Shown: in pieces, positions 13,316 to 20,529 of the stretch
Layout of the letters: each line of letters begins with the position of its first letter
Position numbering within the stretch: position 1 is the stretch's first letter
DNA from: a virus
Reading direction: 5' to 3' (one strand)
Length of the DNA: 20,529 bases
IMG/VR virus record: IMGVR_UViG_3300034631_000025
Coordinates: 1-20,529 of that record
Made by a program: the position numbers and the translations under genes
The notes under the pieces: model-generated
What the model was told of the DNA's origin: nothing
Databases searched by the model: none
What the model saw: only the letters and a program-made list of their open reading frames with translations

Positions 13316-13741
13316 ATGACCGTTCACGCCCTGGAATACGACATCGAGGCGGTGCTGCCCTTCATGCGCGAGCGCATCCCGGGCTTTTCCGCGTGCGAGG
13401 GCCAGCGGGCCATCGGCCTGCGCCGCGACGGCGTGCTGGTGGCCGGCGCCGTGTACGAGGGATTCAACGGCCGGAACCTGTGGGTGCACCTGGCCGGCGC
13501 GCCCGGCGCGCGCTGGATGACTCGCGAGTTCCTGCGGGCCGGCTTCGCCTACCCGTTCCTCGTGTGTGGGTGCGAGCGCATCAGCGGCTACGTGAACGCG
13601 AACAACTTGGCGGCCCAGCGCCTGAACGCGCACCTGGGATGGCAGCCCGAGGCCCGGCTGCACGGCGCGGCGCCCGACGGCGGCGACGTGATTTTGTACG
13701 TGATGTGGCGAAAGGACTGCAGATATGTGCCGGTGGCATAA
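13316..13741 (+). CDS. GNAT-family acetyltransferase-like phage protein
   Basis: A 141-residue protein with the layout of a truncated GNAT fold. A loop with AIGLRRDGVLVAGAVYEGFNGRNLWVHLAG (about residues 38-62) forms beta2-beta4. A MTREFLRAGFAYPF-helix pair follows, then RISGYVNANNLAAQRLNAHLGWQPEARL (about 88-112), which corresponds to the acetyl-CoA pyrophosphate helix and the N-x-A-x-R-x-x-x-x-LG-W motif of GNAT enzymes. Such small GNAT-like proteins are common in phage late regions, where their substrate is unknown. The start lies six bases behind the fourth 20-bp motif with no Shine-Dalgarno sequence in between. The 3' end overlaps the next gene by 17 bases. Confidence 0.75.
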   Translation: MTVHALEYDIEAVLPFMRERIPGFSACEGQRAIGLRRDGVLVAGAVYEGFNGRNLWVHLAGAPGARWMTREFLRAGFAYPFLVCGCERISGYVNANNLAAQRLNAHLGWQPEARLHGAAPDGGDVILYVMWRKDCRYVPVA

Positions 13742-14615
13742 ACACGAATGGGACATGCTCCCCAGCGGCGCGTTCTCGCCGCGCCCGGGCGGCCGAATGA
13801 CGCTCGAAGGCGGAAAGGGGAGCGGTGCCCCCGCGCCCGACCCGCGCCTGGTCGAAGCGCAGATCCGAAGTATGGGCATCCAGGACGGCGCGATCCAGCG
13901 CATCCTGGCCCAGAGCGACGAGATGGCGCCGCTGCAGAAGGAGCAGACCCAGTTCGCGCTGGACACCTCGCGCAAGGCCTGGGAGCAGTCGCAGCAGGAC
14001 CGCGAATACGCGCTGGGTCGGCGCGACCAGCTGACCGGCCAGCAGGACCGGATGATCCAGGACGCTGCGACCTTCAACACGGAGGCAAAGCGCGAGGAGC
14101 TGGCAGGCCAGGCCGCGGCGGACGTGTCGCAGGCCTACACCAGCGCGAGCCGGACATCGGCCGCCGAGATGGCCCGCATGGGCATCAACCCGAAGGACGG
14201 CAAATTCGGGTCCACCAACACCGCGCTGATCGCCCAGACCGGGCTCGCGCTCGCCCAGGCGAAGAACGGCGCGCGCACCGCTGCCCGGGCCGAAGGCCGC
14301 GCCCTCACCGACCGCGCGAGCAACGCGCTGGCCGGCTACCCGGCGATGGGCATCCAGACGACGGGGGCAGCTGCGGGGTTCGGCACCAACGCGCAGACCG
14401 TCGCGAACATGGGCCTCGCCGGCCTGAACAGCGGATACGGCCAAGCCGCGGGCGTGGCCGGGCAGATGGGCTCAAACGCCGCCGGCATGTACGGCGCCAT
14501 GGGGTCCTATCGGAACGGACAGGATCAGATCGCGGCGGCGAACAACCCAGGGAACACGATCCTGGGGGCAGCGGCGGGGATAGGGACTGCTTGGGCTTTG
14601 GGCAAGCTGCGGTAA
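13725..14615 (+). CDS. Internal virion / DNA-ejection protein candidate
   Basis: A 296-residue protein starting at an ATG with AAAGGA upstream inside the GNAT gene's end; an ATG at 13797 is a possible later start. The middle is a long Gln/Glu/Arg/Ala helix (EMAPLQKEQTQFALDTSRKAWEQSQQDREYALGRRDQLTGQQDRM, about residues 65-110). The second half is Ala/Gly-rich with MGIN, RASNALAGYPAMGIQ and repeated GLAGLNSG/AAGVAGQMGSNAAGM segments. It ends in a hydrophobic Gly/Ala stretch (NTILGAAAGIGTAWALGKL). This is the usual make-up of ejectosome proteins carried inside podovirus heads and released into the envelope on infection. It ends exactly where the converging lipoprotein gene ends, with no bases between. 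Confidence 0.65.
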   Translation: MCRWHKHEWDMLPSGAFSPRPGGRMTLEGGKGSGAPAPDPRLVEAQIRSMGIQDGAIQRILAQSDEMAPLQKEQTQFALDTSRKAWEQSQQDREYALGRRDQLTGQQDRMIQDAATFNTEAKREELAGQAAADVSQAYTSASRTSAAEMARMGINPKDGKFGSTNTALIAQTGLALAQAKNGARTAARAEGRALTDRASNALAGYPAMGIQTTGAAAGFGTNAQTVANMGLAGLNSGYGQAAGVAGQMGSNAAGMYGAMGSYRNGQDQIAAANNPGNTILGAAAGIGTAWALGKLR

Positions 14616-14834
14616 CTACTCCACGCAGTCGTAGTCGTAGGTCATGCCGGAGGTCTGCGCTCGATAGCGCGCATACCGCCCATGCTTCTTGCACTCGGCG
14701 TCAGCCAGTGGTTGCGCCGAGCGCACATTCACGGACTCCACGGTAACGCTTCGCGGATTCGAAGCGAGCACCGAGGCACCACACCCACTGAGAGCGAGGG
14801 CGGACGCAGCAGCCAAAAGTCGTAGGGCAACCAT
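14616..14834 (-). CDS. Small lipoprotein, likely prophage-expressed cargo
   Basis: Minus strand, 72 residues. The start at 14834 is chosen because a perfect AAGGAG lies seven bases upstream; a longer reading to 14861 lacks one. The N-terminus is a lipoprotein signal (MVALRLLAAASALALSGC), with the L-S-G-C lipobox cysteine at about residue 18. The mature part is a short polar domain with a cysteine pair (DAECKKHGRYARYR, TYDYDCV) that could form a disulfide. Similar tiny lipoproteins with 'A-x-x-C-x-K-x-G-R-x-A' are widespread in proteobacteria. It follows the next gene (14858-15178) by 23 bases and is probably in one operon with it. It points against the late genes, so it is probably not an ordinary virion gene. 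It could be a conversion or exclusion lipoprotein; an outer-membrane spanin role is less likely without an inner-membrane partner. Confidence 0.75.
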   Translation of the reverse strand: MVALRLLAAASALALSGCGASVLASNPRSVTVESVNVRSAQPLADAECKKHGRYARYRAQTSGMTYDYDCVE

Positions 14835-14857: not shown

Positions 14858-15178
14858 TCATCGACCAAATTTCTTGGCGCAAAGACTCAGCGCGTTGCGG
14901 ACGCCCAACTCGGTGGGCATGGCAACCGCATCTCGCTGGCATGACTCGTAGCGGATGCGATCAAAAAAACTGAGATCTCGCGGAGCGGTAGCGGGTTCTT
15001 CTTCGGAAGTGGCCTTTGCTGCAGGCTGGTAGCCTCTTCCTATGCCCGCTTGGTCTAGGTCATCGAACGAGCTGAGCAGCGGCGGAGGCTTGCGTCCGAC
15101 CGCGCCCGTGGCGCCTGCCCCCTGTCCGCCCAGCGCAGCGGCAGCGATCAGGGCGATGGCGATGGTCTTGGCGTTCAT
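14858..15178 (-). CDS. Secreted small protein sharing a motif with the large internal virion protein
   Basis: Minus strand, 106 residues, ATG at 15178 with GAGG seven bases upstream. The N-terminus is a Sec-type signal peptide (MNAKTIAIALIAAAALGG...AGA). The mature protein starts with a flexible part containing PLLSSFDDLDQAGIGRGYQ (residues 33-51). This is 17/19 identical to residues 10-28 of the large protein encoded at 19088. The C-terminal half is helical (LSFFDRIRYESCQRDAVAMPTELGVRNALSLCAKKFG) with two cysteines. Its periplasmic or extracellular location is predicted from the signal peptide only. An operator-like palindrome lies 22 bases upstream of the start. No known family was recognised. 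The shared block suggests that it binds the same partner as the ejected virion protein. Confidence 0.7.
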   Translation of the reverse strand: MNAKTIAIALIAAAALGGQGAGATGAVGRKPPPLLSSFDDLDQAGIGRGYQPAAKATSEEEPATAPRDLSFFDRIRYESCQRDAVAMPTELGVRNALSLCAKKFGR

Positions 15179-15213: not shown

Positions 15214-15288
15214 GATGCTGTATAAAAGAACAGTACAACGGTGCAAACTTTCGTTACGATGACACAGATTGAAAACGGAGGAGTGTCA

Positions 15289-16362
15289 ATGGCAAACAAA
15301 AAGCCTGTAACGATTCACTATCGTAAATTCGCGAGGCCGCCCGGGTCGCGTGATACGCTGGAGCAGTTAGTACGGACTGCGATGAATTCACCGGATGGCA
15401 GTGCCGCCCACCGGTTACGTGACCGCTACCTATCTAGGCTATTTGCTGCGGGCAGCGATAATTTATTCATCAACATATACGAAGACACAACCGGGCAAAC
15501 GCAATTTGTTTTTGGTGATGTGCTGCATTTCACACGGGGCCACCTGCAGGCGCTATGTCAGACGGCAGATCCGAATGCCGCTCTGGTTCCTGTTCAGCAA
15601 ATGCAAGCTCCTGAACAGAGCGAATATGTTCACTCTCAGATGTTTTGGATGATTAAGGGAGATCACGTCTTCGTTATTCAGAGCATGTCGCTCAGAACTA
15701 CTGAATTTGAGTCGTATCTTGGATGGTTGTTGCAGACTAAAACCTCGGTTTTTCCTGACCAACATTCGATCGTGCTTGCCGCTAAGTTTGACCTTGGAGC
15801 GGTGGGTGGTGATTTGGAAGACATCAAGGAGATTATTGTGGGAGGCGTGGCCCAAAGGCCACCTACAACTAATGAATCTAGTTCGGTACGCTCGCCGGAA
15901 ACATCAGAATTACGTGAATCCGAGGTAGTTAGTACCGGCAATGTGGATGCGACCAGAACTACAGAATGGAGCACGGCGCGAAACGTTTTGAGGGAATTGC
16001 TGGGAGGCGATGCGAATGTGGAGTCTTTGCTCAGTTCTGTTCCTGCCGATGCCGAACTAAGTGTCCAAGTTCACATTGGTTTTCAGACGAGAAAAAAGAA
16101 AATTGATCGCGTTGCTCTGAAGCATTTGGAGACTGGGCTGCGCCATCTCCCCGATGGTCAGGTGGAGGTCAGAGCAAAAGGCCAACGTGTCGCGTCGGAT
16201 GGGAGTGTCCGCCTGCACTATGACGCCGGAATTTCCTTGGTTCGTGCACAGGTGGGCGACAGTCAACTGATCGGTAGCCTCCTGGATCCCTTCGACGTGC
16301 GACGGGCAATGGTTGAGGCCTATAGTCACATGGTAGCCAACGGGAAGATCCAGGAAGAATAA
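15289..16362 (+). CDS. RexA-like superinfection-exclusion protein
   Basis: A 357-residue protein; the ATG at 15289 has GGAGGAG upstream (a GTG at 15241 would add 16 residues). The pattern follows lambda RexA (279 aa), compared from memory. The N-terminal half has HYRK, a LEQLVRTAM segment and LFINIYEDTTGQTQFVFGD (RexA YLYIHKIDGKTFLFTKT), then a MFWMIKGDHVFVIQSMSLRTTEFESYLGWLL strand-helix unit. The C-terminal domain (about 226-357) has VLRELLGG, LSVQVHIGFQTRKKKIDRVA (RexA IVIKPKFKRDIKKVA), VEVRAKG (RexA ISLRAKD) and AYSHMVANGKI (RexA CYARMKSDI). A Ser/Thr/Glu linker (about 186-226) explains the extra length. RexA senses phage growth and activates the RexB channel. GC is low: 42-50% in two counted lines. 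The membrane gene follows after 13 bases. The relation is remote and needs a profile search. Confidence 0.6.
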   Translation: MANKKPVTIHYRKFARPPGSRDTLEQLVRTAMNSPDGSAAHRLRDRYLSRLFAAGSDNLFINIYEDTTGQTQFVFGDVLHFTRGHLQALCQTADPNAALVPVQQMQAPEQSEYVHSQMFWMIKGDHVFVIQSMSLRTTEFESYLGWLLQTKTSVFPDQHSIVLAAKFDLGAVGGDLEDIKEIIVGGVAQRPPTTNESSSVRSPETSELRESEVVSTGNVDATRTTEWSTARNVLRELLGGDANVESLLSSVPADAELSVQVHIGFQTRKKKIDRVALKHLETGLRHLPDGQVEVRAKGQRVASDGSVRLHYDAGISLVRAQVGDSQLIGSLLDPFDVRRAMVEAYSHMVANGKIQEE

Positions 16363-16375
16363 GGCGGATTAGTCG

Positions 16376-16966
16376 ATGACCGTTTTTCGACGCGTTCTAG
16401 GGCTTATGCTACCCATCGTCATTGGATGGGCAGCGGCAGCTTGGACGCCTTTAACGGTTTGGGTTGATATGAAGGAAGGGCTTATAGCCTTCCTTGGGTT
16501 CCTTGCTGCGTCCCTAGTCCAGGTCATGCCTTTGACTGCCAACTTCATCCAAGCTGATAAGCTGGAAGTTCCTCAGGCATATAGACTCACTCAGTCGTTG
16601 ACGAAACAGCAAAATTATTGGATCGGCCTGTTATCAGCAACTATTATTGCGCTTGTCGTTGTAATTGTAGTCGCTGCGGTATCAAAGCAGGTCGATGGAA
16701 AAAATCTGTTGGATCATGGTATTGTCATTACGGTTTCTCAGTCGCTTTGCTTTCTGGAGGTAGGCCTGCTTGTATTTGTCGTTATTAAAATGTTTGGCTT
16801 ATTTGGTGGGATGATGAGCCTTCACCGACTACGGGGAGAGCTGGTTATCGATGCTGCAACGAAGGCCGCAGCTGCCCGACAGCGGGAGATACAGGCGAGC
16901 GTAGCGCCTGCTCAAAATTTAGTGCCTGATGGGTATGGCGCGATAATTCAGCCTCCACCTAAATAG
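16376..16966 (+). CDS. RexB-like four-helix membrane protein
   Basis: A 196-residue protein with AAGGCGG before the ATG. Four hydrophobic segments are visible: about 8-30 (LGLMLPIVIGWAAAAW), 35-58 (GLIAFLGFLAASLVQVMPLTANFI), 82-102 (WIGLLSATIIALVVVIVVAAV) and 116-137. The fourth contains SLCFLEVGLLVF, matching lambda RexB ALSFVELGALFF at L-x-F-x-E-x-G-x-x-x-F, including a glutamate inside the membrane. The second lies after an acidic residue and GL, as in RexB (RDGLGATLSSYAG). RexB is 144 aa; here a charged Ala/Gln/Arg C-terminal tail of about 45 residues is added. Lambda RexB is the ion-channel partner that depolarises the cell during superinfection. Gene order A then B, the 13-base gap and the shared low GC all fit a two-gene exclusion operon. 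Confidence 0.6.
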   Translation: MTVFRRVLGLMLPIVIGWAAAAWTPLTVWVDMKEGLIAFLGFLAASLVQVMPLTANFIQADKLEVPQAYRLTQSLTKQQNYWIGLLSATIIALVVVIVVAAVSKQVDGKNLLDHGIVITVSQSLCFLEVGLLVFVVIKMFGLFGGMMSLHRLRGELVIDAATKAAAARQREIQASVAPAQNLVPDGYGAIIQPPPK

Positions 16967-17050: not shown

Positions 17051-18670
17051 ATGAGCGCATTCGACAAGGGGTTTTCGTTCGGCCTCGGGGCCTGGCAGCA
17101 GGCGATGGACAACAAGCGCCAGGACGAGAAGGACGAACGGGCGAAGAAGGAATTCGGCTGGAAGGAGAAGGACCGTGCTCGCGTGGACGACGACCGCGCG
17201 CGCGAGGATGCCGCCTGGGGCGCGCTCGGCCCCGCGTCCGGTATCCCGCTGCCGGCGCCTGCGGTTGCGCAAGCTGCGCAGGCGCCAGCCGAGACGGCGG
17301 CACCAGCCGAGCCCGTCCCGGATGGACAGGCGCAGGGCGCTTCGCAGGCGCCTGCCGCAGCGCGTGGTTTGGGGATTCCGCAAGCCGCTCCGGCGGCGGC
17401 GCCCATGCCTGTGCAGCAAGGCGTGGCAGCCGCGCTCGCGCCGCCCGCTACTTCACGCTCTGCGCAGCTGCGCGCCCTCGAAGGCATCGCGGTCGCTCGG
17501 CGCGACGCAGGATCGCTGGAGCGACTGGGCGCCGCCCGGCATGGCGCCGAGGAAGACGACTTCATCGCGCAGGCCATGAAGGGCTACACCGGCGCGGACG
17601 ACCAGATCGGCGCCACGGCGCTGCACATCAACGGCACCTCGAAATCCATCACGATGGGCGCACCCGACAAGGACGGGGTGGTGCAGCTCGCCGTGGTCAT
17701 GCCTGACCGCCGGGCTCAGTTCATGAGCCTGAGCAGGGATCAGCAGGCCCGGCTCTACGCGGCAGGCCAGCTCATGGAGCGCAATCCTATCCGCGCCTTC
17801 CGGGAGATCGCCGATGTGAACCGGCCGCTGGCCGAGGCATTGGCCGCGGAAAGCGGCTTGGTGACGAAGGTGGCCGGCTCCAACAACCAAGCCGCGTTCA
17901 AGGCCCGCGACGATGACCGGGCGGACCGGCAGCAGGCGGAAGCCGCGCGCCACAACCGTGCATCGGAGGGGATCGCGTCGGCCAAGGTCGCGGCGGCGGC
18001 GAAGCCTGGTTCCGGCGCGTTTGACCCGCAGGCTGGATTCGACAACGAGCAGGCGTACAAGACTGCGCTGGACATCGTGCGAAAGGAATCCGAAGGCGGG
18101 ATCGGCGGGAAGATGGATCCGAAGCAGATGGCCGAGCGTGTTCAGGCCGTGTACGGAAACCTGCGGGACACCTGGGCCGGCGAGAACATCCAGCGCCAGC
18201 GCGCCAACGCATTCACCTCGGAGGCAAAACGCGCTCGCACGCCCGAAGAGGTTGAGGGCATCCGGGCCCGTGCGCTGGAGCGCGGATACACGGATGCGGA
18301 GATGGCGCGTCTGGATCCACGTTTCGCCCGGCAAGCCCCCGCAGTGGCGCCGGCCCCAGGCGCTTCCCCCCCGGCACCCCTGATCCCGAAGCCAGTCCCC
18401 TCCCGGGCCGTGCCACCAGCCCGGGGATCGGGCTCGGACGAAGATGCGCCCGCAGGCCGCGCGCTGGACGCGGCCAAACTGGATTTGCGCGATGCCATCG
18501 CCAAAGTGCGCACATTCGGGCTGGCGCAGCGCGCGGCCGATCCATCTGCCTACCAAGCGGCCGTGGACCGGGTGCGCGCGGCAGAAGCAGAGGCGGCGCA
18601 GGCGGAGGCGCAGTGGCAGAGCACGATCGCGCGGCAGGGTGTGGGGGCCTACTTCGGCGGAGGCAAGTAA
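17051..18670 (+). CDS. Internal virion protein (DNA-ejection type)
   Basis: A 539-residue protein; AGGAG lies seven bases before the ATG, and the fifth 20-bp motif ends 21 bases upstream. The N-terminus (AFDKGFSFGLGAWQQAMDNKRQDEKDERAKKEFGWKEKDRARVDDDRAREDAAWG, residues 3-57) is the helix pattern typical of internal proteins packaged in podovirus-like heads. An Ala/Pro-rich linker follows (about 60-135). A middle domain then has YTGADDQIGATALHINGTSKSITMG and VQLAVVMPDRRAQFMSLSRDQQARLYAAGQLME (about 176-235), and long Ala/Arg/Gln helices lead to a second linker and a C-terminal helix (LDLRDAIAKVRTFGLAQRAADPSAYQAAVDRVRAAEAEAAQAEAQW). No enzymatic motif is visible. It converges on the minus-strand membrane gene 31 bases downstream. 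The ejection role is inferred from composition and neighbours. Confidence 0.65.
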   Translation: MSAFDKGFSFGLGAWQQAMDNKRQDEKDERAKKEFGWKEKDRARVDDDRAREDAAWGALGPASGIPLPAPAVAQAAQAPAETAAPAEPVPDGQAQGASQAPAAARGLGIPQAAPAAAPMPVQQGVAAALAPPATSRSAQLRALEGIAVARRDAGSLERLGAARHGAEEDDFIAQAMKGYTGADDQIGATALHINGTSKSITMGAPDKDGVVQLAVVMPDRRAQFMSLSRDQQARLYAAGQLMERNPIRAFREIADVNRPLAEALAAESGLVTKVAGSNNQAAFKARDDDRADRQQAEAARHNRASEGIASAKVAAAAKPGSGAFDPQAGFDNEQAYKTALDIVRKESEGGIGGKMDPKQMAERVQAVYGNLRDTWAGENIQRQRANAFTSEAKRARTPEEVEGIRARALERGYTDAEMARLDPRFARQAPAVAPAPGASPPAPLIPKPVPSRAVPPARGSGSDEDAPAGRALDAAKLDLRDAIAKVRTFGLAQRAADPSAYQAAVDRVRAAEAEAAQAEAQWQSTIARQGVGAYFGGGK

Positions 18671-18701: not shown

Positions 18702-18947
18702 TTACCGCCTCGGAGTCGGAGTGACACCGAACTCTTTGAATAGGTCTGTGCCGGGCGAGGGAGCGACGGGCTCAAGCTGCATCGTCCCTCTGGGGCCTGC
18801 GACGGTGATGGCGCCGGTCCATCGATCAAGGCGATAGGCGATCCCCTCAGATTCACCCCCTCCAGTGCCCACGAGGTCGTACCGGAACATCCACGCGGTC
18901 CACGCCAACACGACTGCAGCAATGATGTAGGCGGTTCTGGTGTTCAT
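18702..18947 (-). CDS. Small single-pass membrane protein, cargo type
   Basis: Minus strand, 81 residues, with GGAGGAA five to six bases before the ATG at 18947. One transmembrane helix lies near the N-terminus (AYIIAAVVLAWTAWMF, about residues 6-21), followed by RYDLVG. A short outside domain follows: GGGESEGIAYRLDRWTGAITVAGPRGTMQLEPV (about 28-60). The 'x-x-YRLDRWTGxx' core is common in small uncharacterised proteobacterial and phage proteins. It points against the late genes, like the two genes at 14616-15178, and shares with their upstream region the 8-mer TGTATCAG at the same distance from the start. It is therefore probably expressed under the same control, perhaps in the lysogen. Its role is unknown; membrane-bound exclusion is one possibility. 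Confidence 0.7.
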   Translation of the reverse strand: MNTRTAYIIAAVVLAWTAWMFRYDLVGTGGGESEGIAYRLDRWTGAITVAGPRGTMQLEPVAPSPGTDLFKEFGVTPTPRR

Positions 18948-19087: not shown

Positions 19088-20529
19088 ATGACGACGAAGA
19101 AGAAGTTTGCGGCGCCGCTCCTTAGCTCGTTCGACGAGCTGGACCAGGCGGGTATCGGGACCGGGTATCAGGGCAGGGAAGCGCCCGAGCCCGGGCCAGC
19201 CGAATCCACACCCCCTAAGCGCACCTGGGGCGAGGCGGCGACCGATACCGTGGTGCAACTGGCCGAGGGCGTGAACAACATCGCCGGGGCTGTGCCCAAC
19301 CTGTTCGCGCCGCAGTCCGGGGTCGCGGCGTTCTTCCGGGACAACGCTGACCACTGGCGCGGCGAGCAGAGCGAAGCCCTGCGCCGCAAGGTCGCCGACG
19401 CGGACGCCCAGATCGCGCAGGCGAACCAGGATTCCATCGTGGACCAGGCCGTGGCCGCGGCGAAGGCCTACGGCAGCGATCCGGCGCTGGCGGCGCGGTT
19501 CGTCACCACCAACCTGCCCAGCATGCTCCCGGGCGTGGCCGTGGCCAAGGCGGCACAGGTCGCGCGGCTCGCAGGCGGCGCCAGCGCGGCCGTCGCGGCG
19601 GGCTCGGCCACCACGGCGGCGGGCGTGACCAATGCCGTCCTCAATGCGGGCGGCGCCCGGGGCGAGGCCTTCGAGGACATCCGCGACGCGCTCGTGAAGC
19701 AGGGTCACACCCGCGAGGAGGCGGAGCGGATGGCGCTTGAGCGCTCGCGCATTCCGGCCGCCGTGGGCGCGGCCACCGGCTTCCTGTCAGGGAAGATCGG
19801 GCTGGGGCATGCCGTGGTGGGTGGCGGCGGCGCACGCGGCGGGCTGGCGGCCGGCACGCGCTCCGCGGCGGCGGAGTTGCTGGGCGAGCAGGCGGAGGAG
19901 GTGCTGCCCCAGGTCGCAACGAACTACCAGGCCAGCGACATCGACCAGCGGCCGCTCTCCCGCAACGTCGGGCGCACCGCCGTGGAGACGGCCATCGGTT
20001 CGGCGCCGGGCGCGGGCGTGTCGGGCGCGATGACCGCGCTGCGCCGTGGTGATGCCGCCGCGCCGAAGGCGGAGGAGGGGGCACCGCCGGCCGAGACGGG
20101 CACGCCTGCGGAAGACATGCTCCCCGACTCGCTGCCCGAGCAGCCTGCACGCCGGCCGGGCCCGGCGGCTGACGCTGCCGACACGGCTGCGGCTGTCACG
20201 CGGCTGGCAGAGCTGGAGGTCATCGACGGCAGCGTGGGCCTGAGCGAAGAGCAGAAGGCCGAACGGGCGGTGCTGGCCGAGCGCGTGGAGCGTGCCGCCG
20301 CGCGCGAGGAGGAGCTGGAGGCCATCGGCGAGACGCCCGAGGAAGCGGCCGGCGCCGCGGCGCCGCAGCCCGAAGCTGCGCCTGCGGGCGCGCCTACCCA
20401 GCCCGGGGATGCCGGCGCTGTGGGAGCACCCCAGGGCGGCAGCCAGCTCCAGCAGGAGCTGCGGGCCGTCGCCCAGCGATCGAGCGGCGACACGCGGCGC
20501 AACGCGGTGGAGCTGCTGGCCCGGCTGGA
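19088..20529 (+). CDS. Large internal virion / polyvalent protein, N-terminal part (runs off window)
   Basis: The frame from the ATG at 19088 (AAGGG upstream, sixth 20-bp motif ending 25 bases before) stays open to the window end, so at least 480 residues are present. Residues 10-28 carry the PLLSSFDELDQAGIGTGYQ block shared with the secreted minus-strand protein. Next is a helical part (VVQLAEGVNNIAGAVPNLFAPQSGVAAFFRD). A hydrophobic Gly/Ala region (about 140-320: LPSMLPGVAVAKAAQ, SAAVAAGSATTAAGVTNAVLNAGG, AAVGAATGFLSGKIGLGHAVVGGGGARGGLAAGTRSAAAELLGEQAEEVLPQ) follows, of the kind that lets ejected phage proteins enter or cross membranes. The last 150 residues are Ala/Pro/Glu-rich linker. The layout fits the giant internal proteins of podovirus-like phages. 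Catalytic domains would lie outside the window. Confidence 0.7.
   Translation, partial: MTTKKKFAAPLLSSFDELDQAGIGTGYQGREAPEPGPAESTPPKRTWGEAATDTVVQLAEGVNNIAGAVPNLFAPQSGVAAFFRDNADHWRGEQSEALRRKVADADAQIAQANQDSIVDQAVAAAKAYGSDPALAARFVTTNLPSMLPGVAVAKAAQVARLAGGASAAVAAGSATTAAGVTNAVLNAGGARGEAFEDIRDALVKQGHTREEAERMALERSRIPAAVGAATGFLSGKIGLGHAVVGGGGARGGLAAGTRSAAAELLGEQAEEVLPQVATNYQASDIDQRPLSRNVGRTAVETAIGSAPGAGVSGAMTALRRGDAAAPKAEEGAPPAETGTPAEDMLPDSLPEQPARRPGPAADAADTAAAVTRLAELEVIDGSVGLSEEQKAERAVLAERVERAAAREEELEAIGETPEEAAGAAAPQPEAAPAGAPTQPGDAGAVGAPQGGSQLQQELRAVAQRSSGDTRRNAVELLARL

Follow-up and report, generated by a model that had tools for sequence, protein, structure and literature searches.

A 19-residue tag common to an exported phage protein and a giant polyvalent protein, and the module on which it is predicted to dock

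The DNA described here, IMG/VR record IMGVR_UViG_3300034631_000025, is a phage sequence of 20,529 bases (the window). It encodes the N-terminal part of a giant polyvalent protein and, on the minus strand, a protein of 106 residues with a signal peptide. A block of 19 residues, tag A, is common to the two proteins (17/19 identical). The tag very probably docks on a helical module of ORF539, the upstream protein of the ejection cassette, because types of tag and types of module co-vary among related phages, including two reciprocal chimeras. The 106-residue protein is read as an SOS-inducible periplasmic decoy which would occupy this module, module A, in incoming ejection proteins. The probability assigned to the overall reading is about 0.5.

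The block has the sequence PLLSSFDDLDQAGIGRGYQ in the 106-residue protein and PLLSSFDELDQAGIGTGYQ in the open reading frame (ORF) of the giant protein. The ungapped match scores 89 (BLOSUM62; E ~1e-7, Karlin-Altschul, against the six-frame window); any other six-frame stretch of the window scores 35 or less against the giant N-terminus. The coordinates and sequences of the block, reported in a preliminary description of the window, are as given there. In the DNA, 44/57 bases are identical between the two genes, and the 13 differences are distributed over codon positions 1, 2 and 3 as 0, 1 and 12. From this pattern it had been argued that the peptide is kept by selection. The third-position excess shows that the peptide is conserved, but the argument leaves unspecified which gene is under conservation. 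A second phage, G403 (= L001/L004, 57 kb), possesses both copies, which match the minus-strand block of the window at 18/19 and 16/19 residues. The exported copy has D at position 8 and the next P in common with the distant giant protein of L002, so the segment may have already diverged when it was captured by the exported gene.

The block is not the common low-information motif that the preliminary description had named as a danger to its reading, because in the survey loci the tag patterns A, B and C occur only at giant-protein N-termini and in this exported protein. Apart from the exported copy already known, pattern scans of viral contigs with tags A and B hit only N-termini of giants and, by chance, unrelated or antisense frames; the tag A scan covered CTN leucine codons only, and some copies are therefore missed. 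No tag copy was found in relatives with other tags.

The giant protein is represented in the window by its N-terminal 480 residues only. These match phrog_14770 strongly and phrog_2206, a virion RNA polymerase family, weakly (5e-8). The full-length homolog of L003 (7911-16874) contains LPD38, ddrB-ParB, RadC and MuF_C domains above cut-off; by this homology the giant protein belongs to the large polyvalent proteins of the ejected type, in agreement with its earlier assignment. Packaging into the virion and ejection from it are predicted from gene order in the structural region. Giant proteins of relatives are 81-93% identical from residue 37 onward, yet have quite different N-termini. The tags found before this one conserved region are PLLSSFDELDQAGIG (tag A), SDLFEMAGF-like and often present twice (tag B), NPFDQFD present twice, and others. 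In L002, tag A heads a giant with another backbone; tag B likewise is found on further backbones. Since near-identical giants differ in tag and the same tag heads different backbones, the tag is, as judged from these alignments, portable and interchangeable.

All three of the tag-A relatives that were searched have homologs of ORF539, and so does one phage with tag B, G407. In G407 the central module of ~100 residues is swapped for a segment similar to the C-terminal end of the L003 (tag B) upstream protein. The head of the G407 protein is 227/300 identical to that of the window and the tail 78/117; the module is 78/110 identical to L003 vs 22/90 to the window. When all loci are searched with the modules, module A is found in the window, G403, G404 and G402, and module B in L003, L006, L007 and L074, the same split as that of the tags. 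Viral contigs searched anew, with only module B as query, give 11 loci, giants with other backbones among them, and 11/11 carry a DLF-type tag at the giant N-terminus. The module-B total is 12 with contig C32 of G221 (L052) added and with L059 (NPFDQFD tags, weaker B-like module) excluded. The clear cases consist of 4 A/A records and 12 B/B records (DLFEMAGF-like tags), and none is mixed (p = 5e-4, to be discounted for relatedness of the records). Weak cases are concordant: in L069 a tag with faint likeness to A stands with an A-like module (~29 bits), and in L059 the NPFDQFD tags accompany the B-like module.

The two chimeras are stronger evidence than the pairing count. Heads of the upstream proteins form two unrelated groups, and the type of tag tracks the module, not the head. 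G407 combines head 1 (ORF539-type, as is its tail) with module B and tag B; G402 combines head 2 with module A and tag A. The module is a helical domain (residues ~332-425) between disordered linkers, a block with a predicted local distance difference test (pLDDT) score of ~70-90 in the AlphaFold2 model. Neither the 296-residue protein of the cassette nor the other structural proteins are retained as candidate partners of the tag, because they do not vary with its type.

Module and tag lie within ~1 kb of each other, and related phages often exchange this region. Co-variation could accordingly reflect linkage only, the two segments being recombined together without contact. This is quite improbable. 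Module B ends 1-8 residues from the C-terminus in nearly all carriers; G407 alone has a 118-residue ORF539-type tail after it. With this tail separating module B from tag B, the two segments were not acquired as one simple contiguous block. The pairing is also constant across several giant backbones and the two unrelated heads, with no mismatched phage among the clear cases. When the proteome of G407 is scanned as 415 segments of sixty residues, it is substantially closer to tag-B than to tag-A phages only in the module and the giant N-terminus; three further segments are marginal (28-29 bits).

Different tags on otherwise near-identical giants could also reflect different hosts, if the partner of the block were an envelope protein of the host on which entry depends, with the exported copy competing for it. 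A docking site for a host protein had been offered in the preliminary description. It is not supported, and competition for a host partner is very improbable: the module of the neighbouring phage protein predicts the type of tag, both in the chimeras and on unrelated giant backbones, and a host partner would not demand this.

In five further loci (L058, L061, L063, L065, L073) the giant ORF is short (~870 residues) and its tag, FELLDGMDVTGIGAGARYRP, resembles tag A. The upstream protein of L058 stops before any module, and neither module A nor module B is found in it. These loci look like decayed ejection cassettes.

The 106-residue protein is predicted to be exported, as had been proposed. 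The signal peptide is basic at its start, has a hydrophobic core, carries small residues at positions -3 and -1, and is without lipobox; the cleavage site, after A23, was assigned by the -3,-1 rule, not by program. Predicted cleavage leaves 83 soluble residues, and in this mature form the tag starts near residue 10, as it does in the giant protein. The C-terminal hairpin is modelled by AlphaFold2 with pLDDT ~85 over residues 71-100. The ortholog in L001/G403 is 93% identical, with frame and ribosome-binding site intact. No match to the 106-residue protein is present in the family libraries searched. Searches of INPHARED with this protein, the giant N-terminus, ORF539 and the upstream protein of L003 gave nothing useful. 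Among 400 family genomes there is one real match, to the C-terminal domain only, in element G365; an order-wide search with the small protein added one spurious match only.

In G365 the hairpin is homologous to a domain of an exported protein of 162 residues, which is without tag A and adjoins a polyvalent-protein remnant. Because the hairpin domain is present there without tag A, the tag of the 106-residue protein looks grafted onto its carrier. The giant gene of G365 is truncated, and its tag is therefore not comparable. The region concerned (G365:C18, L049 1105-2949) is a small integrated element with several exported proteins, the one with the cysteine hairpin standing beside the truncated polyvalent-protein gene.

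Docking of the tag on the virion module leaves room for an exported protein with another job, e.g. in envelope stress or in lysis support via the cysteine hairpin, its tag being a functionless captured spacer. The hairpin of G365, the look of a gene pieced together from a signal peptide like that of the L007 lipoprotein, a tag and a hairpin, and the carriage of this gene by two phages only are in keeping with such an origin. A spacer without function is nevertheless unlikely. All 13 positions invariant in four giant-protein tag copies are retained in both exported copies. The distance from tag to mature N-terminus is about equal to that in the giant protein. Within the block, the exported copies of the window and G403 differ by 0 silent changes and 1 amino-acid change (Q to K, last position).

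A LexA-type box of the form CTGT-N8-ACAG, a finding beyond the preliminary description, is located at the predicted promoter, 40-55 bases ahead of the 106-residue gene and between that gene and a divergent operon. Its position and consensus are kept in G403 with the spacer changed. AT-rich boxes of this LexA type are rare among related records.

Any protein bearing the tag is expected to be drawn to module A, and polyvalent proteins of phages are predicted to be packaged (PMC5512222). The exported-looking protein might then be virion cargo, recruited by its tag to ORF539 in assembly and injected with the giant protein. This is decidedly improbable for a protein with a clear signal peptide and two hairpin cysteines, whose gene runs on the opposite strand, follows a LexA-type box and is outside the late operon. 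A packaging tag, the other role suggested at the outset, probably applies to the tag in the giant protein and is unlikely to apply to the exported copy.

The decoy mechanism is proposed as follows. The giant protein, ejected from the virion, would dock via its N-terminal tag on the cognate helical module of ORF539. The 106-residue protein, Sec-exported and probably LexA-induced when DNA damage induces the prophage, would display the tag at a giant-like distance from the N-terminus on its two-cysteine hairpin. In the periplasm it would fill module A of ORF539 from incoming related virions; the giant protein could then not be added to the conduit, and related phages would fail to deliver their DNA. 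The block would fall at the time when repressor-based immunity is lost, and LexA control of a decoy would make sense because this immunity is lost on prophage induction. Interference, like the periplasmic location of ORF539 during entry, is presumed.

The earlier interpretation is partly supported as a whole. Superinfection exclusion by a periplasmic decoy stays the leading functional reading, the decoy and exclusion step being evenly balanced between acceptance and doubt. The partner has changed: it is most likely the ORF539 module of the phage itself, not a host protein. With module A as partner the decoy idea becomes more specific, since the predicted periplasmic target of the 106-residue protein is then the adaptor protein of the incoming phage.

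Several points weigh against the decoy. ORF539 has no match among PDB sequences and no similarity to solved tunnel proteins, and a fold search with its model, which is of low confidence, returns nothing significant. Its membership of the virion and its role in a periplasmic conduit are inferred from gene order and relatives. The contact between tag and module may be confined to the virion interior, out of reach of an exported protein. It may be the divergent operon, not the 106-residue gene, that the LexA-type box controls. Evidence of selection on the exported gene is weak (ratio of nonsynonymous to synonymous substitution rates, dN/dS, ~0.33 from 13 codon changes). The exported tag copy is known from two related phages only, the window phage and G403, and an exported copy of another tag was not found in relatives with other tags, in the survey loci or in the pattern scans of viral contigs.

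SieA blocks entry of P22 through gp20 and gp16, and P22 hybrids require matched gp20 and gp16 (PMC10883804). SieA is, like the 106-residue protein, prophage-encoded, and is thought to act in the envelope on these ejection proteins of related short-tailed phages; G403, the closest relative of the window phage, has a P22-like portal. Unlike SieA, the 106-residue protein is small, exported and soluble, copies 19 residues of the giant of its own phage, and is without the inner-membrane character of SieA-type proteins. The target of Ltp, from Streptococcus phage TP-J34, is the tape measure protein, and a secreted form lacking the lipid anchor is active as well (PMC3952083). Ltp is likewise an exported prophage protein, blocking infection via the tape measure protein of the superinfecting phage. 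The 106-residue protein differs from Ltp in the lack of a lipobox and of any cysteine in the signal region, in the lack of the Ltp repeat domain (no family match in the library scans), in a host of Gram-negative type, and in that it would mimic the partner of a conduit protein. It would work like SieA and Ltp, by exclusion at the entry conduit, yet has the defining features of neither.

The N-terminal part of gp16 of T7 cements gp15, and the N-terminal domain of the N4 virion RNA polymerase (vRNAP) is proposed to stay bound to gp51 (PMC8954989, PMC12633501). In both systems, as predicted here, the largest innermost protein contacts, or is proposed to contact, a tunnel protein by its N-terminal part; the weak match of the giant N-terminus to phrog_2206 is a further likeness to vRNAP. 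Gene order is comparable: the ejection cassettes 7-20-16 of P22, 14-15-16 of T7 and 52-51-50 of N4 correspond to the 296-residue protein, ORF539 and the giant protein, with accessory genes between the first two. A podovirus-type portal (PF16510) is present in G403. Unlike the T7 and N4 pairs, the predicted contact is one of a short interchangeable tag with a swappable module, and ORF539 shows no sequence match and, in its low-confidence model, no significant fold match to gp15, gp20 or gp51. The L003 homolog agrees with the polyvalent proteins of PMC5512222 in having several polyvalent-associated domains in one long polypeptide; no N-terminal docking tag or cognate module is described in the passages of that source that were searched. 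No description of tag-module pairs was found in the literature searched, a partial open collection.

Coordinates of the features are collected in Table 1.

Table 1. Features of the window, with positions counted from its first base
Feature	Position	Strand	Basis or remark
296-residue protein, ortholog of predicted virion structural protein phrog_8003	13725..14615	+	
72-residue lipoprotein, next gene downstream of the 106-residue gene	14616..14834	-	99% identical ORF in G403
106-residue protein carrying the tag, predicted exported	14858..15178, stop codon included (coding 14861-15178)	-	ORF; ortholog
C-terminal helical hairpin, residues 69-106, with C80 and C100	14861..14974	-	AlphaFold2; homologous domain in G365
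Tag A copy, residues 33-51	15026..15082	-	Block match, conservation
Predicted signal peptide, residues 1-23, MNAKTIAIALIAAAALGGQGAGA	15110..15178	-	Sequence; hydrophobic-segment scan
LexA-type (SOS) box CTGTATAAAAGAACAG	15218..15233	.	Divergent intergenic region; 0.2 expected in window
Divergent gene, 357 residues from ATG at 15289, phrog_3482 (unknown function)	15289..16362	+	
196-residue membrane protein, second gene of divergent operon	16376..16966	+	
ORF539, upstream protein of ejection cassette, predicted tag receptor	17051..18670	+	
Module A of ORF539 (helical; predicted binding site of tag A)	18017..18325	+	
Giant polyvalent protein, N-terminal part; continues past window end	19088..20529	+	Homologs ~3000 residues
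Tag A of giant protein, residues 10-28	19115..19171	+	Block match, N-termini of relatives

The divergent two-gene operon (15289-16966) is inserted in the late region and shares the intergenic LexA-type box; it could have a second envelope or defence function. A near-perfect SOS box, ATACTGTATCTTTGTACAGTATT, is present at L087 3723 in G405, a tag-B relative. Minus-strand lipoproteins are found between late genes of related phages (L007 4494-5078, L003 7046-7327), so this stretch seems to be a hot spot at which genes for exported accessory proteins collect. The signal peptide sequence of the L007 lipoprotein resembles that of the 106-residue protein (40/54 bases alike). A gene for a single-membrane-span protein of 81 residues (18702-18947, minus strand) is located between ORF539 and the giant gene; it is present in G403 and was not found in the other relatives compared. 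Directly ahead of the ejection gene, at the place taken in the window by other accessory genes, some relatives have a gene that resembles, as judged by eye, those of 3'-phosphoadenosine 5'-phosphosulfate (PAPS) reductase-type proteins (L003 4595-5464). Since G403 encodes a tyrosine integrase and the P22-like portal, the lineage is probably temperate.

For phages with giant proteins in general it is tentatively proposed, with slightly less confidence than the decoy itself, that an interchangeable set of tags and modules couples the giant protein to the conduit, and that in one lineage or more a copy of the phage's own tag is exported, under control of LexA, to compete in the periplasm and block conduit assembly by phages of the same tag type. 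If true, a short tag, swappable together with its binding module, would tie giant ejected proteins to the ejection machine. This would provide a rule by which ejection proteins that belong together are recognized from sequence, and a way to approach a contact known structurally only from a few model phages. An exported mimic of the docking peptide of the phage itself would be an added strategy for blocking entry. Its predicted specificity is that module-A phages would be blocked and module-B phages would not, and it would supply a rationale for LexA control.
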